A stretch of 64,000 bases of DNA. Source: Mesonia hippocampi. GTDB taxonomy: Bacteria > Bacteroidota > Bacteroidia > Flavobacteriales > Flavobacteriaceae. Location of the stretch: contig NZ_JACIFO010000001.1 in the NCBI RefSeq assembly GCF_014197445.1, forward strand, positions 62,001 to 126,000, written 5' to 3'. Shown here one piece after another: positions 46,223 to 62,538 of this stretch. The notes beneath the pieces were generated by a model. That model saw nothing but the letters and a program-made list of their open reading frames with translations, ran no database searches and had not been told where the DNA came from. Each line of letters opens with the position of its first letter. Within the stretch, counting starts at the first letter, position 1. Position numbers and translations under genes: made by a program.

Positions 46223-46813
46223 TTATAATTTAAGGAGCTCTGTTTGGGTATAGGTTTTTAGCTCATCAAAAAACAATTTAAATTCATCTTCAAACAAGGT
46301 GTAATTTTCTTCTAAGGTTTTTACGGCATTTTGCAGGGAAATCTCTCTTTTTATGCGTTTGCTCATTTGCGATAAAATATAATGTAAACCTTCTAGAGAA
46401 GCATAACAGGTTAACCAATTTTCTTTTACCATAATAGGGTATAGGTTTTTAATTCTATCAGGAAGAATTTCAAAATTAGTTTTTAAAAGTTGATAAAAAT
46501 CGGCAGCATAAACACCTAAACTCTTATCATGATAAATTTCCCAGTTTTTAGCCAGAAAATGGTCGAAAACCACATCGATAATCACCATATTATAATGCCT
46601 AAATTCATCAAAAAAACGATGAGCACTTTGATAAACCAGCTTATGTGTATCGGTAAAACTATCTATTTTTCGGTGTAAAATAATACCGGTTTGGATTTCG
46701 GGAGGGTAGGCTAAGTAACTTTTTCCTTTAATGCCGTCAGCTATAAAGTTTCCTATCTGAATATTTGTATTAGTACCTGAAAGGTAGATGTGTGCAAGGT
46801 AATTCATGCGCAT
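46223..46813 (-). CDS. Acyl carrier protein phosphodiesterase (AcpH-like)
   Basis: 196 residues. AcpH removes the phosphopantetheine group from ACP. The family N-terminus is clear: MNYLAHIYLSG, IGNFIADGIKGK and GIILHRKIDSFTD, followed by VVFDHFLAKNW. The His/Asp set of these motifs would bind a metal. A second ATG two codons downstream (MNYLAH) is equally good as start. It is convergent with the copper locus. Confidence 0.88.
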   Translation of the reverse strand: MRMNYLAHIYLSGTNTNIQIGNFIADGIKGKSYLAYPPEIQTGIILHRKIDSFTDTHKLVYQSAHRFFDEFRHYNMVIIDVVFDHFLAKNWEIYHDKSLGVYAADFYQLLKTNFEILPDRIKNLYPIMVKENWLTCYASLEGLHYILSQMSKRIKREISLQNAVKTLEENYTLFEDEFKLFFDELKTYTQTELLKL

Positions 46814-46931
46814 AAAAATACTATAAATAAATTAACAAGCTTTATTTTTAGCATTTTAATTGCCATTTTGTAACGATATCTCGTACTTTAGCAGAACACT
46901 AATCTTAAACTATTAAAAGCAGAAAACATTT

Positions 46932-48320
46932 ATGACATTAATAAAATCTATTTCAGGATTTCGCGGAACCATAGGAGGAAGAACAGACGATAACCTAACC
47001 CCCGTAGATGCGGTAAAATTTGCAGCCGCTTATGGTACTTGGGTAAAACAACAATTGCCTAAAGAAAACTATAGAATTGTAGTTGGGAGAGATGCTCGAA
47101 TTTCGGGCGAGATGATACAAGAATTAGTAATGAATACGCTTGTAGGCTTAGGAATTCAGGTAATCGATTTAGGGCTATCTACCACACCAACAGTAGAAGT
47201 TGCTGTGCCTATGGAGCATGCCGATGGCGGAATTATTCTTACCGCTAGCCATAACCCTAAACAATGGAATGCCTTAAAATTGCTAAATAATAAAGGAGAG
47301 TTTATTAATGCAGAAGAAGGAGCTAGAGTTTTAGAAATTGCCGAAAAACAAGATTTTATATTTGCTGAGGTAGATGATTTAGGGAAAATCACTAAAAACG
47401 ATGCTTATATCGATATGCATATCGATGAGATTTTAGACTTAGAATTGGTAAATACCGAGGCCATCAAAAAAGCTAAATTTAGCGTAGTAGTCGATGCAGT
47501 AAATTCTACAGGAGGTATAGCCATCCCATTATTGTTAGAACGATTAGGCGTAGAAACTATAAAATTATATTGTGAGCCTACGGGAGAATTTCCACACAAC
47601 CCAGAACCTTTAAAAGAACACTTAACCGATATTTGTAAAAAAGTACTTCAAGAAAAAGCCAATTTAGGCGTAGTGGTAGATCCAGATGTAGACAGGCTTG
47701 CCATTATAGATGAGAACGGACAAATGTTTGGAGAAGAATATACCTTAGTTGCCGTAGCAGATTATATCTTAGGACATAAAAAAGGAAATACGGTAAGCAA
47801 CTTATCATCATCAAGAGCTTTACGAGATGTTACCGAAAAGCATGGAGGAACTTACAGCGCAAGTGCAGTAGGAGAGGTAAATGTGGTAAAATTAATGAAA
47901 GATACTCAAGCCGTAATAGGAGGAGAAGGAAATGGCGGAATTATTTATCCAGAGTTGCACTATGGTCGAGATAGTTTGGTAGGGATTGCCCTGTTTTTAT
48001 CTTTACTAGCAGAGCGCTCCATCAGTGTTTCTGAGTTAAGAAAAACCTACCCTGCATATTATATGGCAAAAAACAAAATCCAGTTAACACCAAGCTTAGA
48101 TGTAGATACTATTTTGGCTACCATAGCACAGCGTTACCAAAAGGAAGAAATTTCTACCGTAGATGGGGTAAAAATAGATTTTCCAGAAAATTGGGTGCAT
48201 TTACGAAAATCGAATACAGAACCTATTATCAGAATTTATACCGAAGCAAAAACTCAAGAAACTGCCGATATTCTAGCCGAAAAATTTATAGCAGAAATTA
48301 AAGAAATTGCAGGCATATAA
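46932..48320 (+). CDS. glmM: Phosphoglucosamine mutase
   Basis: Converts glucosamine-6-phosphate to glucosamine-1-phosphate for UDP-GlcNAc, hence peptidoglycan and lipid A. 462 residues. Phosphoserine loop TASHNPKQWNALK (Ser near residue 103), metal loop DPDVDRLAI (about 253-261), sugar-binding GEGNGGI (about 335), and the phosphate-binding RKSNTEPIIRIY near the C-terminus. Phosphomannomutase activity cannot be ruled out, but the assignment is usual in Bacteroidota. It abuts the convergent acyltransferase gene with no spacing. Confidence 0.93.
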   Translation: MTLIKSISGFRGTIGGRTDDNLTPVDAVKFAAAYGTWVKQQLPKENYRIVVGRDARISGEMIQELVMNTLVGLGIQVIDLGLSTTPTVEVAVPMEHADGGIILTASHNPKQWNALKLLNNKGEFINAEEGARVLEIAEKQDFIFAEVDDLGKITKNDAYIDMHIDEILDLELVNTEAIKKAKFSVVVDAVNSTGGIAIPLLLERLGVETIKLYCEPTGEFPHNPEPLKEHLTDICKKVLQEKANLGVVVDPDVDRLAIIDENGQMFGEEYTLVAVADYILGHKKGNTVSNLSSSRALRDVTEKHGGTYSASAVGEVNVVKLMKDTQAVIGGEGNGGIIYPELHYGRDSLVGIALFLSLLAERSISVSELRKTYPAYYMAKNKIQLTPSLDVDTILATIAQRYQKEEISTVDGVKIDFPENWVHLRKSNTEPIIRIYTEAKTQETADILAEKFIAEIKEIAGI

Positions 48321-56192: not shown

Positions 56193-57695
56193 ATGATGCA
56201 AAAAACCGAAGAAAAAGTACTTTACGATTACCAAGAAAAAGACTTAGAAAAGATATTTACTTACCTAAGTGATTATCCCGAAAGCTATAATTTATGTTAC
56301 CAGTTGCCTACAGGAGGAGGAAAAACGGTGATTTTTTCGGAGATTGTTAGACGTTATATCCAGCAAACCCACAAAAAAGTAATTATTTTAACGCATCGTA
56401 TAGAATTGTGTAAACAAACTTCTAAGATGTTGGACGGTTTTAATGTTAAAAATAAAATTATTAACAGTAAAGTAAAAGACCTTCCCGATCAAGATGAATA
56501 CCAGTGCTTTGTAGCCATGGTAGAAACACTTAACAACCGTTTAAATGATGAAAAATTAGAAGTAAAAGATATTGGGCTGGTTATTATAGATGAGGCACAT
56601 TACAACTCGTTTACAAAACTGTTTAAACATTTTGAGAACTCTTTTATTTTAGGCGTAACCGCAACACCGTTAAGTTCTAACATTAAGCTTCCTATGAATG
56701 ATAATTATAAGGAGCTTATTGTAGGAGAATCTATTACCTCGTTAATAGAAAAAAGTTTCTTGGCACGCGCCAATACTTTTAGTTACGATGTAGGTTTAGG
56801 CTCGCTGCAAGTAGGAATAAATGGAGATTATACCGTAAAATCTTCCGAAGATTTATATACCAACCTATCTATGCAAGAAAAACTCTTGCAAGCATACGAG
56901 GAGCGTTGTAAAGGGCAAAAAACACTTATTTTTAATAACGGGATAAATACGTCTTGGTTTGTTTACCAAACCTTTAAAGATGCAGGTTACGAGATAAGAC
57001 ACCTAGATAATACCCATAGTAAAAAGGAACGTAAAGAAATTTTAAAATGGTTTAAAACTAAACCCGATGCAATTTTAACTTCGGTTAGTATTTTAACTAC
57101 AGGATTTGATGAACCTACCGTAAGAAATATAATATTAAATAGAGCAACAAAATCCTTAACCTTGTATTATCAGATGATAGGACGTGGGTCGCGAAAACTT
57201 CCTGGTAAAGATGAGTTTAATGTGATTGATTTAGGAAATAATGCCGCTAGATTTGGTATGTGGGATGCTCCGGTAGATTGGCAACTGATATTTAAAAACC
57301 CAGACTATTTCTTAGATAACATGATATCTGATGAAGAAATAGAGCAGGAATTTACCTATAAAATGCCAGAAGAAACTAGAGCGCTATTTAAGAATACGGA
57401 AAATATTCATTTCGATATTAAGAAAGCTTATGATGAAGCGGTAAATAATGGCGAAAAATCAAAAGCTGTATTGGAGGAATCTATTAATCAGCATGCACGT
57501 ATGTGTGTAGAAAATAGTGAAGATGTTTTTGATGCCCGTATTTTGGCTAGAGAATTGAAGGACGATATCCACGATCGTGTAAAACGCTATTCTTATTGTA
57601 TAATTAATAACACCAAAAACTATAGAGATTGGTTGTTTGAAGATTATAACAGGAAGTTGCGTTCAAAAATAAACACCATGTTTCAAGATGAATAA
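56193..57695 (+). CDS. SF2 DEAD/DEAH-box helicase
   Basis: 500 residues. Motif I PTGGGKTVIFSE (about 40-51), Ia THRIELCKQT, II IIDEAHYNS (about 137-145), III GVTATP, V TGFDEPTVRNI and VI YQMIGRGSR. Two RecA-like domains plus a C-terminal helical part (about 380-500). It resembles the RadD/YejH type more than RecQ or RecG, so a role in DNA repair is plausible. Double ATG at the start; either may be used. Confidence 0.9.
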   Translation: MMQKTEEKVLYDYQEKDLEKIFTYLSDYPESYNLCYQLPTGGGKTVIFSEIVRRYIQQTHKKVIILTHRIELCKQTSKMLDGFNVKNKIINSKVKDLPDQDEYQCFVAMVETLNNRLNDEKLEVKDIGLVIIDEAHYNSFTKLFKHFENSFILGVTATPLSSNIKLPMNDNYKELIVGESITSLIEKSFLARANTFSYDVGLGSLQVGINGDYTVKSSEDLYTNLSMQEKLLQAYEERCKGQKTLIFNNGINTSWFVYQTFKDAGYEIRHLDNTHSKKERKEILKWFKTKPDAILTSVSILTTGFDEPTVRNIILNRATKSLTLYYQMIGRGSRKLPGKDEFNVIDLGNNAARFGMWDAPVDWQLIFKNPDYFLDNMISDEEIEQEFTYKMPEETRALFKNTENIHFDIKKAYDEAVNNGEKSKAVLEESINQHARMCVENSEDVFDARILARELKDDIHDRVKRYSYCIINNTKNYRDWLFEDYNRKLRSKINTMFQDE

Positions 57696-57700
57696 AAATA

Positions 57701-57733
57701 AAAGCTACCTATAAATTTAGGTAGCTTTAGTTT
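57701..57733. terminator. Terminator between helicase and trpA
   Basis: AAAGCTACCT / AGGTAGCTTT stem with an 8-base A/T loop, between convergent genes. Confidence 0.85.
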
Positions 57734-57747
57734 TTATTGGCTGTTTT

Positions 57748-58503
57748 TCAGATGTAAGATTTTATAAAATCGGCAGTTTTTTCAACGGTGTTTTGCGAAA
57801 GGAAATTAACATAAGCATCGCTAATAATCCTACCTTTAAAAAATGATAGAGCAATTTCTACTTGCTTATTATCTGCCATGCCAACATCAATAAGCAGTGG
57901 AGTTTTAAGCTTTAAAGCTTTGAGGTATTTAAAATAAGTTATTTCTTTTTCAGAAAAAGCACTGTTTTCCGCTAAAGGAGCTATAGTATATATAAATCCT
58001 CCTGCAAGATTATCGATTTCTTTTATTCTACTTTCTGATGTTTGCGGACTTATAAAAGGAATATATTTCAGGTTGTTTTCGGTAAAGTATTGCTGGTACT
58101 TGCTTTTAAAAATAGATAGTGGTAAATCAGGAATTATTAAACCATCAATGTCTATTTGAGCACATTTTTTGCAAAAATCTTTTACACCATATTGGTAAAT
58201 AGGATTTAAATATCCCGAGATAAGTATAGGTTTTGTTGTTTGTTTTCTTATATGCTTAAGCTGCTCGAAAAATAGCTTTGTTGTCATACCATTTTGCAGA
58301 GCCACTTTTTCACTTTCTTGTAGTGTGGGTGAGCCTGCAAGGGGATCGCTAAAGGGTAATACCACAATGATAATGTCGGCCTTATTTTCAGACAGCAGTT
58401 GTATGCTTTTAGGCGTGTCGTTTAAATTAGGAAATCCTGCGGTAGTGTATATGGCGTTTAAATTGCTTTTTTGCGCTAGTGTATAATCTATTCTATTCAT
58501 CAT
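57748..58503 (-). CDS. trpA: Tryptophan synthase alpha chain, catalytic residues lost
   Basis: 251 residues, full-length and in frame. The family normally cleaves indole-glycerol phosphate to indole. In active TrpA the catalytic Glu and Asp lie in a stretch like E-x-G-x-PFSDPLADGPT; here the stretch reads IIIVVLPFSDPLAGSPT, so Glu is Ile46 and Asp is Gly57. The phosphate-binding sites also fail: a (A)GVTG loop is replaced by IAPLAENSAF and IIGSA by IISDA. The rest (GYLNPIYQYGVKDFC, DGLIIPDLP, FISPQTSESRI) remains TrpA-like. It begins 2 bases after trpB. The open frame and conserved fold suggest a retained non-catalytic role, for example activating TrpB. Confidence 0.9.
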   Translation of the reverse strand: MMNRIDYTLAQKSNLNAIYTTAGFPNLNDTPKSIQLLSENKADIIIVVLPFSDPLAGSPTLQESEKVALQNGMTTKLFFEQLKHIRKQTTKPILISGYLNPIYQYGVKDFCKKCAQIDIDGLIIPDLPLSIFKSKYQQYFTENNLKYIPFISPQTSESRIKEIDNLAGGFIYTIAPLAENSAFSEKEITYFKYLKALKLKTPLLIDVGMADNKQVEIALSFFKGRIISDAYVNFLSQNTVEKTADFIKSYI

Positions 58504-58505
58504 TT

Positions 58506-59684
58506 TTAGTTAAAGTAATTTGTGTAAGTATTTAAATCTTTATCGCCGCGTCCAGAAAGGTTTACGACAATAATATCAGAGGCTTTAGTGGCTAGTTTGT
58601 CTAAAACTGCCAAGGCATGTGCGCTTTCTACAGCGGGGATAATTCCTTCTAGTTTACAGAGTTCTATTCCAGCAGTAATTGCTTCATCATCGGTTATGGT
58701 AATAAATTCTACGCGTTTTTCTTTGTGTAAATGTGCATAAAGTGGACCAACGCCAGGGTAATCTAAACCAGCAGAAACAGAGTAAGGCTCTATTATTTGT
58801 CCATCTTCTGTTTGCATAACCATGGTTTTGCTTCCGTGAATTATTCCAGGAGTACCAATTACAGAGGTAGCTGCTGTTTTACCAGAGTTAACTCCTTTAC
58901 CTGAAGCTTCTGCTGCAATAAGTTTAACCTCGGGGGTATTTAAGTAATGATAGAAAGCTCCTGTGGCATTACTACCTCCGCCCACACAAGCAACAATATA
59001 ATCTGGGTTAGGTGTTTTTTCTTTTTCAGTTAGTTGCTTTTTTATTTCTTCAGAAATTACACTTTGTAAACGTGCAACAAGATCTGGATAAGGATGAGGA
59101 CCCACAACGCTACCTATAATATAAAAAGTATCTTCAGCGTTTCTTACCCAGTCTTGGATGGCTTCATTGGTGGCATCTTTTAGTGTTTTGCTCCCCGATG
59201 TGGCAGGTTTTACTTCTGCTCCTAATAGTTTCATGCGTTCTACATTAGGTGCTTGCCTTTGGGTATCTATTTCGCCCATGTAAATTACACAATCTATACC
59301 TGCTAAGGCACATACCGTAGCGGTAGCCACCCCATGTTGTCCTGCTCCAGTTTCTGCAATTACACGGGTTTTGCCTAAGTGTTTTGCTAGCAGAATTTGC
59401 CCAATGGTGTTATTTATTTTATGAGCTCCAGTATGGTTTAGATCTTCTCGTTTAAGATAAACTTTAGCCCCTATTTTTTCAGAAAGCCTTTTGGCATGAT
59501 ATAGAGGAGAAGGCCTACCTACATAATCTTGAAGCAAGGAAGAGAACTCTTGTTTAAAGCTTTCTTTTTGCATAATTTCTAGGTAACAGTTTTTTAATTC
59601 TTCGATGTTATGATGAAGCATCTCTGGGATGTAAGCCCCACCAAATTCACCATAGAATCCGTTTTCGTTTACTTGATAATTCAT
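58506..59684 (-). CDS. trpB: Tryptophan synthase beta chain
   Basis: Joins indole and serine to tryptophan with PLP. 392 residues. The PLP Lys is in [10 protein letters not shown] (about residue 90), the catalytic Glu in [12 protein letters not shown], the phosphate cup GGGSNATG and the pyridine-contact Ser in NLSGRGDKD are all present, as is the COMM domain. So TrpB should be active. Together with the altered TrpA it points to use of free indole. It is 142 bases after trpG; in this gap I find neither trpD, trpC or trpF nor traces of them. Confidence 0.97.
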
Positions 59685-59825
59685 GTTTTTTATTGTTTTA
59701 AATTATTGTTTTTTAATTGTTTATAACTGTTTTTTGTGTTTGTTTTTAGGATGTGAGTTTCCTAGGCTAGAATATTTTCCTAGTCCTTATATGGTATTTT
59801 AAAGGTTGTTTTTTAAAATAATTAC

Positions 59826-60392
59826 TTAAAAATCAAGCCAATTTTTTAGCATAGTTTTTCCTGTAGGTGTAAGTATAGATTCTGGATGAAATTGTACTCC
59901 TTTTACGGTATATGTACGGTGCCTTAGGGACATTATTATTCCGTTTTTATCTACCGCAGTAGGCATTAATGAGTCAGGAAGGGGAGAAGTTACCCCCCAA
60001 GAGTGATAACGTCCTACACTTAGTTCTGTTGGCAGGTTTGTGTAAAGCGTTTCTAACGGGTCTATTACTTTAATTGTAGTAGCAATGCCATGATAAACTT
60101 CTGGAAGGTTTGTAATTTTGCCTCCAAAAACCTCTGCAATGGCTTGTTGCCCTAAACAAACGCCAAGTATATTTTTTGTCGAAGCGTATTTCTTTATAAT
60201 TGGTTTTAATAGTCCTGCTTCTTCGGGTATTCCTGGGCCAGGTGATAAGATTAGATTATCAAACTCTTCTAATTCTTCTAGATCTAGCTTATCGTTTTTA
60301 AAAACGGTTACCTTATTACTTAGTTCTTCTAAATAATGTACTAAGTTGTAGGTGAAGCTATCATAGTTGTCAATCATTACTATTTTTTTCAT
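59826..60392 (-). CDS. trpG: Anthranilate/aminodeoxychorismate synthase glutaminase (TrpG/PabA)
   Basis: 188 residues of class I glutamine amidotransferase: IDNYDSFTYNLVHYL at the start, oxyanion loop SPGPGIPEEAG, nucleophile Cys in GVCLGQQAIA (about residue 79), and His/Glu in VQFHPESILT (about 168-177). It supplies ammonia to TrpE or PabB. No trpE is adjacent, so it may serve folate synthesis as PabA. It is the first structural gene after the attenuator, 48 bases from its T run. Confidence 0.95.
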   Translation of the reverse strand: MKKIVMIDNYDSFTYNLVHYLEELSNKVTVFKNDKLDLEELEEFDNLILSPGPGIPEEAGLLKPIIKKYASTKNILGVCLGQQAIAEVFGGKITNLPEVYHGIATTIKVIDPLETLYTNLPTELSVGRYHSWGVTSPLPDSLMPTAVDKNGIIMSLRHRTYTVKGVQFHPESILTPTGKTMLKNWLDF

Positions 60393-60443
60393 GGTATAGA
60401 AGAATAAAAATTAATTTACTGTTTATTTTATTTAAAAATATTC

Positions 60444-60479
60444 AAAAAAAAAGACCTGTCGTGAAATGACAGGTCTTTT
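60444..60479 (-). terminator. Attenuator hairpin of the trp leader
   Basis: On the minus strand AAAAGACCTGTC, loop ATTTCAC, GACAGGTCTTTT and a run of nine T in total. The loop plus two bases (ATTTCACGA) is the exact complement of TCGTGAAAT in the leader (60503-60511), giving a 9-bp antiterminator pairing across the leader stop. This is the normal layout for transcription attenuation. Confidence 0.85.
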
Positions 60480-60500
60480 ACAATAGGGTATATAAAAGTG

Positions 60501-60563
60501 TTATTTCACGAATCGTAATTCCTGAAAGTTCCACCAAAATTTATTTACAAAGTTTAAATTCAA
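60501..60563 (-). CDS. trpL: trp leader peptide with tandem Trp codons
   Basis: Short frame MNLNFVNKFWWNFQELRFVK (20 residues) read from a TTG at 60563; there is no ATG, and an ATT directly before it is another possibility. Two Trp codons (60531-60536) lie in its middle. When Trp-tRNA is low, a ribosome halted there would leave the tail of the leader free to pair with the hairpin loop and let transcription continue. A consensus promoter lies just upstream. Confidence 0.82.
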   Translation of the reverse strand: MNLNFVNKFWWNFQELRFVK

Positions 60564-60586
60564 AATGTTGTTGTTAATTGTTGGGG

Positions 60587-60619
60587 CAAATTTAACTAAT
60601 AAAAAATTAGATATCCAAA
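60587..60619 (-). promoter_or_regulatory. Promoter of the trp leader
   Basis: On the minus strand TTTG (60619-60616), 21 bases, TAAATTTG (60594-60587), a good match to the Bacteroidota -33/-7 pattern. It puts the transcript start about 15-20 bases before the leader TTG. Confidence 0.7.
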
Positions 60620-60634
60620 TTATCTGGGTAAATT

Positions 60635-61255
60635 TTAACTTAACGCATTAAAAATGGCAACTCCGTAGATAGCAAAACGCACAAAACGCAGTAATCCAAA
60701 TAATAAAAAGCTAGGAAAAGGGAACTTTATAATTCCCGCAGCAATACTAGATATAGAGAAAGGTAATGGTAATAAGGCACCAACTACGATAAGAAAACCA
60801 CCCCATTTACGCATGTTTTTAATGTGTTTTTCCATTTTTACTTCAAGGTAAACAAATACAGAAGGGATGCTGGCAATACCTCGCCCTACAAAGTAAGATA
60901 TAACCCCTCCTAAATAGGATAATGTAGCAAGAATGCTTAAAAACACCACAGGATGCTCTGATTTTCCTGACCATGCAATGAACATTTCTGGTGGAATTAA
61001 CCCTAAAAATGATTCGGAGGCGAAGAAAACAGCAAAAACGCCTATTGGCGGAAAGTTTTCTGTAACATAAACAAGAATTGTATTAATGTCTATTACAAAA
61101 AAGTGTACAGCGAGTAAGGCTGCTACAAATAAAATAATAGGAAGTGCAGCCTTTAAAAGACTTTTTCCTACAAATGAATAAAAACCTGTATACGAGTAAT
61201 ATTGGTGAAGAAGTTTCCACCTTGGTTTTTTGTTAGCTGGGTTTTTCTTTGGCAT
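60635..61255 (-). CDS. VTT-domain (YqaA/DedA-like) membrane protein
   Basis: 206 residues with about five membrane segments: LPIILFVAALLAVHFFVI, GVFAVFFASESFLGLIPPE, VFLSILATLSYLGGVISYFVG (in part), GFLIVVGALLPLPFSISSI and SFLLFGLLRFVRFAIYGVAI (in part). The E-x-(5-8)-PPE/GR pattern and the GALLPLPFS loop fit the SNARE-associated/VTT superfamily, which includes lipid scramblases and undecaprenyl-phosphate flippases. The basic N-terminus should face the cytoplasm. It starts 9 bases after the MscS gene and so shares its transcript. Confidence 0.88.
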   Translation of the reverse strand: MPKKNPANKKPRWKLLHQYYSYTGFYSFVGKSLLKAALPIILFVAALLAVHFFVIDINTILVYVTENFPPIGVFAVFFASESFLGLIPPEMFIAWSGKSEHPVVFLSILATLSYLGGVISYFVGRGIASIPSVFVYLEVKMEKHIKNMRKWGGFLIVVGALLPLPFSISSIAAGIIKFPFPSFLLFGLLRFVRFAIYGVAIFNALS

Positions 61256-61263
61256 TTTATAAA

Positions 61264-62538
61264 TTATAATCTAGTGTTATTTTGAGTTATCTTTTGTATG
61301 TCGTGGGTGGTGGGTGGTTCAAAAACCTCAAGTTTAAAGTAAGGAACTGCAGCAAGAAGGTGATCGAAAATATCACTTACAATGTGCTCGTAGTTTTTCC
61401 AAACTTTATCACGGCTAAAAGCATAGATTTCTAGTGGCACGCCATGAGGTGTAGGTGCAAGTTGCCTACTCATCATTAACATATCTTTATTTAGCGCAGA
61501 GTGGTTACTTAAATATTGATCTACATATTTTCTAAACACGCCAAAATTGGTTAAGTTTCTTCCGTTAATAAGCAGGCTTTTATCAATTTCGTTTTTGGTA
61601 TTGTATTTATCAATTTCGGTAGTTCTGGTGTTTAAATAAGCGGTAATTAGCTGGATTTTTTTTAATTCTTCTATTTCTTCACCAGTTAAGTAATGTATAG
61701 AGTTTGCTTTGATGAGAATAGATCTTTTTATTCTTCGCCCATTAGAATTTTGCATACCTCTCCAATTGGTAAATGAATCAGAGTTTAGGTAATAGGTAGG
61801 AATGGTAGTAATGGTGTAATCAAAATTTTTAACTTTTACAGAAGATAAGTTTATTTCAATCACAGTTCCATCGGCACCATATTTTTCCATCGTTATCCAA
61901 TCTCCAATACGTACAGTGTCGTTTACAGAAACCTGAATACTAGCTACAAAGCCTAAAATACTATCTTTAAAAATAAGCAGTAAAACAGCAGAAAGTGCTC
62001 CTATAGCTGTTAGGAAATCTGCGATGGATTTGTTGGTTACAATAGAGGAGATTAAAACAATACCTATCATCCAAGTAATAATCATAAATACTTGAATGTA
62101 ACTTTCTATAGGTTTGTCTTTAAAGTTTTTAAGAGAACGTAAATAATCTTTGAAAGAATGTAGGATGGTACGAATCATCCAAATAAACATAATAATTATA
62201 GCAATATCAACAATGCTTATTATTAAAGCTTTTGGCGAGGAGTAATCAATCAAGAAATCGGTTATAAAGGTACGTCCTACAATAAGTACAATTAAGTTTG
62301 CTAAGTTTACAATAGCTTTATTACTGAATAAATAATCGTCAAATTTTGTTTTTGTTTTTGCCGCAATTTGAGATAAAAAGCCTCTAAAAAACTTAATGAA
62401 AACGTACCTAAGAGCAGAGGCAATAATGATAAAAACAATGATGTTGAGTATAAAATTTACCCATACAGCTATTGGTTTAGACCATCCAGCGCTGATAAAA
62501 AAATCGTAAAAGAAATGAGTAAAATTCTCAAGTTTCAT
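61264..62538 (-). CDS. MscS-family mechanosensitive ion channel
   Basis: 424 residues. Several N-terminal membrane helices (about 20-45, 75-95, 105-130, 150-170), then the pore helix TM3 region AIGALSAVLLLIFKDSILGFVASIQ (in part: SAVLLLIFKDSILGFV) followed by the MscS beta-domain VNDTVRIGDWITMEKYGADG and NFDYTITTIPTYYL. The C-terminal cytoplasmic part has PTPHGVPLEIYAFSRDK. Releases solutes on hypo-osmotic stress. Larger than E. coli MscS (286 residues), like the YbdG/Msc-medium group. Confidence 0.94.
   Translation of the reverse strand: MKLENFTHFFYDFFISAGWSKPIAVWVNFILNIIVFIIIASALRYVFIKFFRGFLSQIAAKTKTKFDDYLFSNKAIVNLANLIVLIVGRTFITDFLIDYSSPKALIISIVDIAIIIMFIWMIRTILHSFKDYLRSLKNFKDKPIESYIQVFMIITWMIGIVLISSIVTNKSIADFLTAIGALSAVLLLIFKDSILGFVASIQVSVNDTVRIGDWITMEKYGADGTVIEINLSSVKVKNFDYTITTIPTYYLNSDSFTNWRGMQNSNGRRIKRSILIKANSIHYLTGEEIEELKKIQLITAYLNTRTTEIDKYNTKNEIDKSLLINGRNLTNFGVFRKYVDQYLSNHSALNKDMLMMSRQLAPTPHGVPLEIYAFSRDKVWKNYEHIVSDIFDHLLAAVPYFKLEVFEPPTTHDIQKITQNNTRL

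Follow-up and report, generated by a model that had tools for sequence, protein, structure and literature searches.

A putative tryptophan-regulated salvage operon with a predicted inactive TrpA in Mesonia hippocampi

Genes of the locus

The window analysed here comprised 64,000 nt of Mesonia hippocampi (NCBI RefSeq assembly GCF_014197445.1, contig NZ_JACIFO010000001.1, positions 62,001 to 126,000 of the forward strand; all positions below are those of the window) and carries a short tryptophan (Trp) locus, trpG-trpB-trpA, on its minus strand. trpG/pabA (59826..60392) encodes a glutamine amidotransferase, trpB (58506..59684) tryptophan synthase beta and trpA (57748..58503) a tryptophan synthase alpha that is predicted to be catalytically dead. 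Coordinates and strand confirmed the gene order given by a sequence-only reading of the same DNA; the trpG-trpB gap, put at 142 bases in that reading, measured 141 nt. trpB and trpA are spaced by 2 nt. No other same-strand gene of at least 60 aa lies within trpG-trpB-trpA and no trpR was found at the locus; TrpR was not among the names of the six scanned locus proteins, and a genome-wide search for trpR was not made. The 141-nt gap was also searched for traces of trpD, trpC or trpF, which were rejected, the only match being 15 nt long (E = 0.33).

TrpA spans 251 aa in a frame without a stop, in line with the earlier claim that it is full-length. It passed the profiles TIGR00262 (144.8 bits, cut-off 102.35) and PF00290 (165.3, cut-off 27), which identifies it as a true TrpA homologue, and fell short of another TrpA profile, NF009621 (52.5, cut-off 234). 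TrpB passed TIGR00263 (584 bits, cut-off 392.45) and was below the cut-off of TIGR01415 (182.8, cut-off 518.85). By its profile scores the trpB product is of the TrpB1 type, with a partner TrpA.

Leader region upstream of trpG

Judged by its anatomy, the region directly upstream of trpG is a trp attenuator, with a tandem-Trp leader, a terminator and a 9-bp antiterminator; it was overlooked in the sequence-only reading and is new here. The putative leader peptide open reading frame (60501..60563, minus strand) starts with TTG, encodes LNLNFVNKFWWNFQELRFVK* and carries tandem Trp codons at 60531-60536. Its end is overlapped by the antiterminator 5' strand UCGUGAAAU (60503..60511, minus strand), which can pair with AUUUCACGA at 60459-60467, inside the terminator, over 9 bp, the longest complementary run. 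The predicted intrinsic terminator hairpin (60449..60479, minus strand) reads AAAAGACCTGTC-ATTTCAC-GACAGGTCTTTT, is followed by a T run and has a fold z-score of -4.6. A candidate promoter, TTTG-N21-TAAATTTG (60587..60619, minus strand), was found by pattern match to the consensus of Bacteroidota promoters; the pattern TTTG-N17-23-TAnnTTTG occurs 6 times in the 64 kb, counting both strands.

Relatives were drawn from a search for indole-glycerol-phosphate synthase (IGPS, TrpC), and 25 of the 31 IGPS-positive genomes were examined for the leader, six being left out (G and L numbers below are our handles for genomes and loci). By pattern, the leader arrangement was present in 24 of the 25 (WWW in 22, WW in 2). 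A covariance model (R1) was built from these 24 with the M. hippocampi locus excluded; its E-values are rough because calibration was short. The model matched the M. hippocampi locus, leader frame included, at 75.5 bits (E = 2.4e-19), and the next matches were the opposite-strand mirror (23.8 bits) and one at 20.6 bits (E = 0.0012). The 25th relative, G031, was matched at 60.1 bits and two further records at 45-48 bits. Complementary antiterminator runs, taken as raw lengths without a shuffled control both at the M. hippocampi locus and in the relatives, were 5-9 bp in the relatives, with the longest run of G004 and G016 in another register. In the homologous terminator hairpin, 6 of 11 pairs showed both-side changes across the 24 relatives; the common hairpin GGCTTGTC/GACAAGCC and that of M. 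hippocampi, GACCTGTC/GACAGGTC, differ by two pairs changed on both sides. trpE lay within 50 nt downstream of the leader in 27/27 family relatives examined (loci L116-L135, L077, L078, L079, L087, L090, L058, L059).

Six of the seven known lone trpG loci (G001, G006, G007, G008, G012 and G010 C50, with G005 C8 left out) were checked for the same leader; TGGTGG was not found upstream of any of them, and the covariance model gave at most 20 bits there. A leader (MRKLTLN[TK]TWWW...) with a terminator was present upstream of the gene for stand-alone TrpB2 in G001, G006 and G012 (L082:7219-7366, L083:7466-7613 and L084:6829-6976; 48-49 bits). By eye, TrpB2 in G001 and G012 adjoins his-operon-like genes. 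In G010 and G005, a complete, divergent trp operon has two leader-terminator units in tandem (first WW, second WWW) ahead of trpE (L087:2000-2450 and L121), and a second trpG lies elsewhere in the genome. No family of Rfam 15 reached its gathering score in 57000-61300, and assignment of the trpG leader to a known RNA family was rejected on that ground. No report of a flavobacterial trp attenuator was found among the listed titles and abstract openings of a literature search.

Tryptophan pathway genes in the genome, genus and family

The genome assembly (2.59 Mb, 26 contigs, 99.5% complete) gave one match each for TrpA, TrpB and TrpG and none for IGPS, TrpD, TrpF or a second TrpA. Two chorismate-binding proteins were found, of which one scored best as PabB (320.2 bits, just under the cut-off of 328.4, with 291.6 for the TrpE model) and the other as isochorismate synthase (213.9 bits, under the cut-off of 224.75); a TrpE identity was therefore rejected for both, and TrpE was taken to be absent. 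The other hit of the TrpG search (26% identity, 546-aa frame) resembles GuaA. These searches support the loss of de novo tryptophan synthesis, with trpE, trpD, trpC and trpF gone as the sequence-only reading had stated from the locus; among the genes that it had proposed to look for genome-wide (these four, pabB and a second trpA), only a pabB is present. A second trp gene set elsewhere in the genome was rejected by the same searches. TrpG is probably kept as PabA for folate synthesis, serving PabB, a role that had been suggested for it and that fits its sole copy, the presence of PabB and the TrpG/PabA match in 16/16 genus genomes.

That de novo synthesis persists at some other site, or escaped detection because the assembly is incomplete, is barely conceivable: the contigs leave the genome unclosed, but at this level of completeness four distinct activities are missing, the ancestral trp site could be located and has no trp gene, and the TrpA described here is predicted to be unable to use indole-glycerol phosphate.

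Within the genus, matches for all pathway steps were found in 10 of 16 genomes, and IGPS was missing from the other six (M. hippocampi, G001, G006, G007, G008 and G012). TrpB2 was present in three of the IGPS-less siblings (G001, 710.3 bits; G006, 708.8; G012, 712.0; cut-off 366), and the genome search of G007 and G008 gave no TrpB match. An evenly drawn family sample of 397 genomes, 3 of them genus members, lacked IGPS in 28 cases and TrpA in 23 (8 IGPS-negative and 3 TrpA-negative genomes being deduced from gaps in the lists). The 330 genomes with a completeness of 90% or more and a contamination of 5% or less included 14 without IGPS and 10 without TrpA. Four of these 330 combined a missing IGPS with a TrpA match, which was strong in M. 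hippocampi (8.8e-49) and weak in G056, G169 and G220 (8.5e-5 to 8.8e-4), so that M. hippocampi is the only good-quality genome with a strong TrpA and no IGPS. G223 likewise has a strong TrpA and no IGPS, but its genome is 77% complete.

A PF01212 search of the M. hippocampi genome returned no full-strength tryptophanase-type match (best E 4.2e-10), so that any indole would have to be taken up from the surroundings. The same search found a strong protein of aldolase type (~340-370 aa, perhaps a threonine aldolase) in 15/15 siblings, and this protein is missing from M. hippocampi.

Alpha subunit

TrpA was aligned with 35 flavobacterial TrpA sequences and that of E. coli, whose numbering is used unless stated. 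It carries E49I, D60G, G61S, L100S, G211D, F212V, G234S and S235D; loop αL6 is rewritten with a three-residue deletion (182-184), and the β-contact loop αL2 is kept. The 35 relatives show no variation at E49, D60, T183, G184, G211, F212, G234 and S235. Both catalytic acids had been described as replaced by Ile46 and Gly57 (native numbering), and the alignment agrees: these residues stand at positions 49 and 60, where 35/35 relatives and E. coli have E and D. The accompanying claim that the phosphate-binding GVTG and GSA motifs are gone needs one correction; the first is lost through the deletion and the second reads SDA, but the relatives have S[VTI]TG, not GVTG. The features of an active TrpA (Glu49, Asp60, Thr183-Gly184 of αL6 and the phosphate site Gly234-Ser235) are all replaced or deleted, and from these residues TrpA is predicted to be catalytically dead and unable to cleave indole-glycerol phosphate.

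Near-invariant columns were defined as having at most one exception among the 35 relatives, and TrpA is changed at 28/85 of them; the highest count among the relatives was 12/87, in G031. E. coli TrpA, which is active though distant, differs at 37/85; a dead site is therefore indicated by which columns are changed, and not by their number alone. At the 48 near-invariant columns common to E. coli, 16 are changed in M. hippocampi. Tunnel residues named in PMC6635532 that are near-invariant in this set were changed at 6/7, vs 22/78 of the other columns (p = 0.0046). Ten β-facing columns were kept 10/10 (p = 0.027); those of αL2 (53, 55-58) were taken from PMC6608616, and 102, 104, 108, 130 and 132 were chosen by us.

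A structure model (AlphaFold2, three-sequence alignment, best of five models) had a predicted local distance difference test (pLDDT) score of 81, a predicted template-modelling (pTM) score of 0.83 and eight strands in barrel order, with residues 56-58 of αL2 below 50 in pLDDT; the TIM barrel is thus predicted to be intact. The matches listed by Foldseek against the PDB were TrpA or tryptophan-synthase chains and BX1 (best E 2.2e-19, template-modelling score 0.82). An intact barrel would also suit a TrpA with a new catalytic or ligand-binding role, in which a small molecule may gate TrpB. The pocket has gained Asp206, Asp229, Asp118 and Ser96, and the new acids at conserved positions (G211D, S235D, G122D, L100S) would amount to remodelling beyond erosion. 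Such a role is nevertheless very unlikely, as the lid αL6 is shortened and rewritten, the changes are known from a single sequence, and drift gives the same picture.

Besides an intact TrpA, G031 has a broken TrpA fragment, containing a stop, close by (C51:42862-43296 and 46563-47255). The intact copy is the next most divergent in the set, though it retains both E49 and D60.

Beta subunit and subunit interface

TrpB had been read as keeping its catalytic residues, and 14/14 pyridoxal-phosphate and catalytic positions tested are retained. It is changed at 15/189 near-invariant columns, which is ordinary for a set in which relatives reach 13/197. It is highly improbable that TrpB, with or without TrpA, serves some other beta-replacement or serine reaction in place of indole salvage. 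TrpB enzymes are known to accept other nucleophiles, and no tryptophanase-type indole source was seen in the genome; against this stand the unchanged catalytic residues and a trp attenuator that would tie the operon to Trp-tRNA charging.

Three α-β contacts are named in PMC6608616, namely αD56-βK167, αD60-βR175 and αG181-β178, of which the βK167 and βR175 numbers are our conversion from M. tuberculosis numbering. Both residues of the first contact are kept. Both residues of the second are lost, β175 being R in 35/35 relatives and Q here. At the third, αL6 is changed and β178 is V here vs I in 35/35 relatives. The COMM-domain stretch β175-185 (R175Q, 178V, 181A and 185F here) is changed at 4/7 near-invariant columns vs 11/182 elsewhere (p = 0.0008, for a stretch chosen post hoc). 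A stand-alone TrpB residue set, LBCA-Res6 (E, E, T, S, A, M), is described in PMC11917138; at these positions, mapped by motif spacing with a one-residue offset between positions three and four, TrpB reads S, S, S, S, G, S, and this score of 1/6 fits a dependence of TrpB on TrpA.

Rate of TrpA evolution

The TrpA:TrpB tree-distance ratio, with pairs at a TrpB distance of 0.15 or less dropped, had a median of 3.18 in M. hippocampi pairs (35 pairs, 2.60-4.52) and of 1.68 among relatives (567 pairs, maximum 3.28). Identity of TrpA to eight siblings was 42-47% for M. hippocampi, 68-74% for the outsider G018 and 62-68% for the outsider AG893, giving an excess of ~40-80 changed residues over the outsider expectation. 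Neutral drift was simulated without indels from three sibling genes at two base compositions (400 runs each). A stop-free frame remained in 22-29% of runs at 20 changes, 4-8% at 40, 0-2% at 60 and 0-0.75% at 80, which argues against a long-abandoned trpA and is still compatible with a younger abandonment.

We regard it as unlikely that TrpA is a decaying relic, not yet deleted or broken, beside a TrpB that does the salvage alone. Such decay would accord with the fast evolution of TrpA, the loss of αL6 and βR175, and the siblings that carry TrpB2 without TrpA. Set against it are the 251-codon frame, intact despite the excess changes (simulated probability of no stop 0-8%, frameshifts excluded), the conservation of all ten selected β-facing positions, the 2-nt trpB-trpA spacing and the lack of the stand-alone residue set in TrpB.

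Locus history

The trp operon lies near a rhodanese-like gene in G003, G013 and G015, with a nitroreductase-like gene as a further neighbour in G003 and G013 and kynureninase in G015; a lone trpG is found near kynureninase in G007, G008 and G001. The ancestral trp site of M. hippocampi (L136), from rhodanese and nitroreductase to kynureninase, holds no trp gene, so that trpGBA with its leader sits elsewhere. trpE is missing between the leader and trpG. Horizontal gain of the whole locus was considered and drew no support from trpG (67% to sibling G013) or from the leader, which matches the covariance model. Trees did not settle where trpBA came from: TrpB clusters with G031 and with the divergent operon copies in G005 and G010 (local support 0.90), and TrpA with G027 (0.67; long-branch grouping is possible). 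In the PabB tree, M. hippocampi falls with G018, a member of a different genus (0.70).

The old trp site (L136:7914-17954) borders kynureninase (over cut-off) and has FAD-oxygenase, hydratase, aldehyde-dehydrogenase and amidohydrolase-type genes as further neighbours. The organism may thus break down Trp, an amino acid that it is unable to synthesise.

Discussion

Taken together, these features make it probable that trpG-trpB-trpA is a Trp-regulated indole-to-tryptophan salvage operon in which TrpA now serves TrpB only as a structural and allosteric partner. Uncharged tRNA-Trp would stall the ribosome at the tandem Trp codons, the antiterminator would form, and trpG-trpB-trpA would be transcribed; with ample Trp, a ribosome at the leader stop would cover the antiterminator strand and the terminator would form. 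TrpB would join environmental indole to serine. TrpA would be kept because TrpB is built to work with bound TrpA; the αL2 loop (P53-L58, with D56 facing βK167) would still dock on the COMM domain and keep TrpB active, and the αL6/D60 arm appears to have been lost on both sides of the interface. TrpG would be retained as PabA for folate.

Loss of de novo synthesis with retained indole salvage had already been proposed in the sequence-only reading, and the intact TrpB, the attenuator and the three pathway-less siblings with TrpB2 behind a putative attenuator of similar kind lend support to it. Of the two roles offered there for TrpA, activation of TrpB and a new function, we infer from the αL2 face, the indole-glycerol-phosphate site and the stand-alone residue set that the former is the better. 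The present function of TrpA is the weakest link of the salvage interpretation. A narrower proposal, which we put forward only tentatively, is that a lid-less, ligand-independent TrpA holds TrpB permanently active via nothing but αL2, both proteins having given up the αL6/D60 signalling arm; the genus would then have two attenuated salvage operons, one with a locked TrpBA and one with TrpB2.

Several observations weigh against a salvage operon with an activating TrpA. Indole would have to be external, given the lack of a full-strength tryptophanase-type match. The three siblings with TrpB2 and no TrpA indicate that salvage needs no TrpA in general, and G007 and G008, which have neither enzyme, that members of the genus can do without salvage. 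The TrpB of C. caviae, when isolated, functions in the absence of TrpA (PMC3937554). TrpA is fast-evolving and may be decaying; were the excess near 40 changes, an intact frame by drift would not be rare (4-8%). At the interface, the β175-185 cluster was selected only after inspection of the data, and TrpB changes were not enriched across the whole COMM domain (p = 0.27). The αG181-β178 pair is weak evidence, since α181 is already Ser in 34/35 relatives and β178 Ile in 35/35, so that this contact had changed earlier. Loss of R175 and other TrpA-facing residues from TrpB could mean a loosened coupling. Lastly, relatives with an active TrpA also lack the full stand-alone set, which makes the stand-alone test not specific.

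Both catalytic acids, replaced in M. hippocampi, are reportedly conserved in the TrpA of Chlamydia trachomatis, as Michalska is said to have found in 2021. Like C. trachomatis trpRBA, the locus comprises only the last pathway enzyme, would use exogenous indole and appears to be under Trp-responsive control, which in trpRBA includes a reported attenuator (PMC3937554, PMC9378776, PMC6635532). C. trachomatis TrpB function requires a full-length, catalytically inactive TrpA (PMC3937554), and TrpB gains four-fold from TrpA (PMC9378776). The M. hippocampi locus shares with the Chlamydia type a trpBA without trpEDCF and a TrpA that, predicted from its residues, is unable to make indole. It differs in having no trpR repressor at the locus and a trpG in the operon, and its genome is of Bacteroidota type and not that of an obligate intracellular parasite. 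The enzyme would work like the C. trachomatis salvage enzyme, and the operon is not a strict member of the trpRBA type because no trpR stands at the locus.

Stand-alone TrpB2 (TIGR01415/NF009057) is likewise expected to join indole and serine, and in the siblings it stands behind the same kind of leader, but M. hippocampi has a TrpB1 with a partner TrpA. In a simulated complex of Pelodictyon luteolum TrpB (plTrpB), αL2-COMM communication is kept and a direct αL6 link is missing (PMC11917138), as predicted here; plTrpB carries LBCA-Res6, unlike the M. hippocampi enzyme (1/6). Maize BX1, a TrpA paralogue, is also a TrpA fold in a changed role, but it is an active lyase that keeps Glu49 and Asp60 (PMC11574760), neither of which is present here. 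PMC8262981 added nothing decisive for this locus. The leader resembles ribosome-mediated trp attenuators in its sequence features (tandem-Trp leader peptide, antiterminator, terminator and U run) and departs from known ones in having no Rfam match at gathering score and in its conservation across all the family relatives examined. Among the listed titles and abstract openings of the literature search, none described a Bacteroidota TrpA that has lost its catalytic residues and is retained beside TrpB.

Tryptophan synthase is a textbook example of an allosteric bienzyme, and the contribution of TrpA to TrpB beyond its own chemistry is an open question. In M. hippocampi, the α reaction, its substrate and the lid appear to have been lost during evolution while both genes stayed together, which would separate activation from catalysis. 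The retained attenuator offers a sequence marker for salvage operons: in 4 of the 6 genus species without de novo synthesis, a TrpB or TrpB2, kept or gained, is preceded by an apparently Trp-sensing leader.

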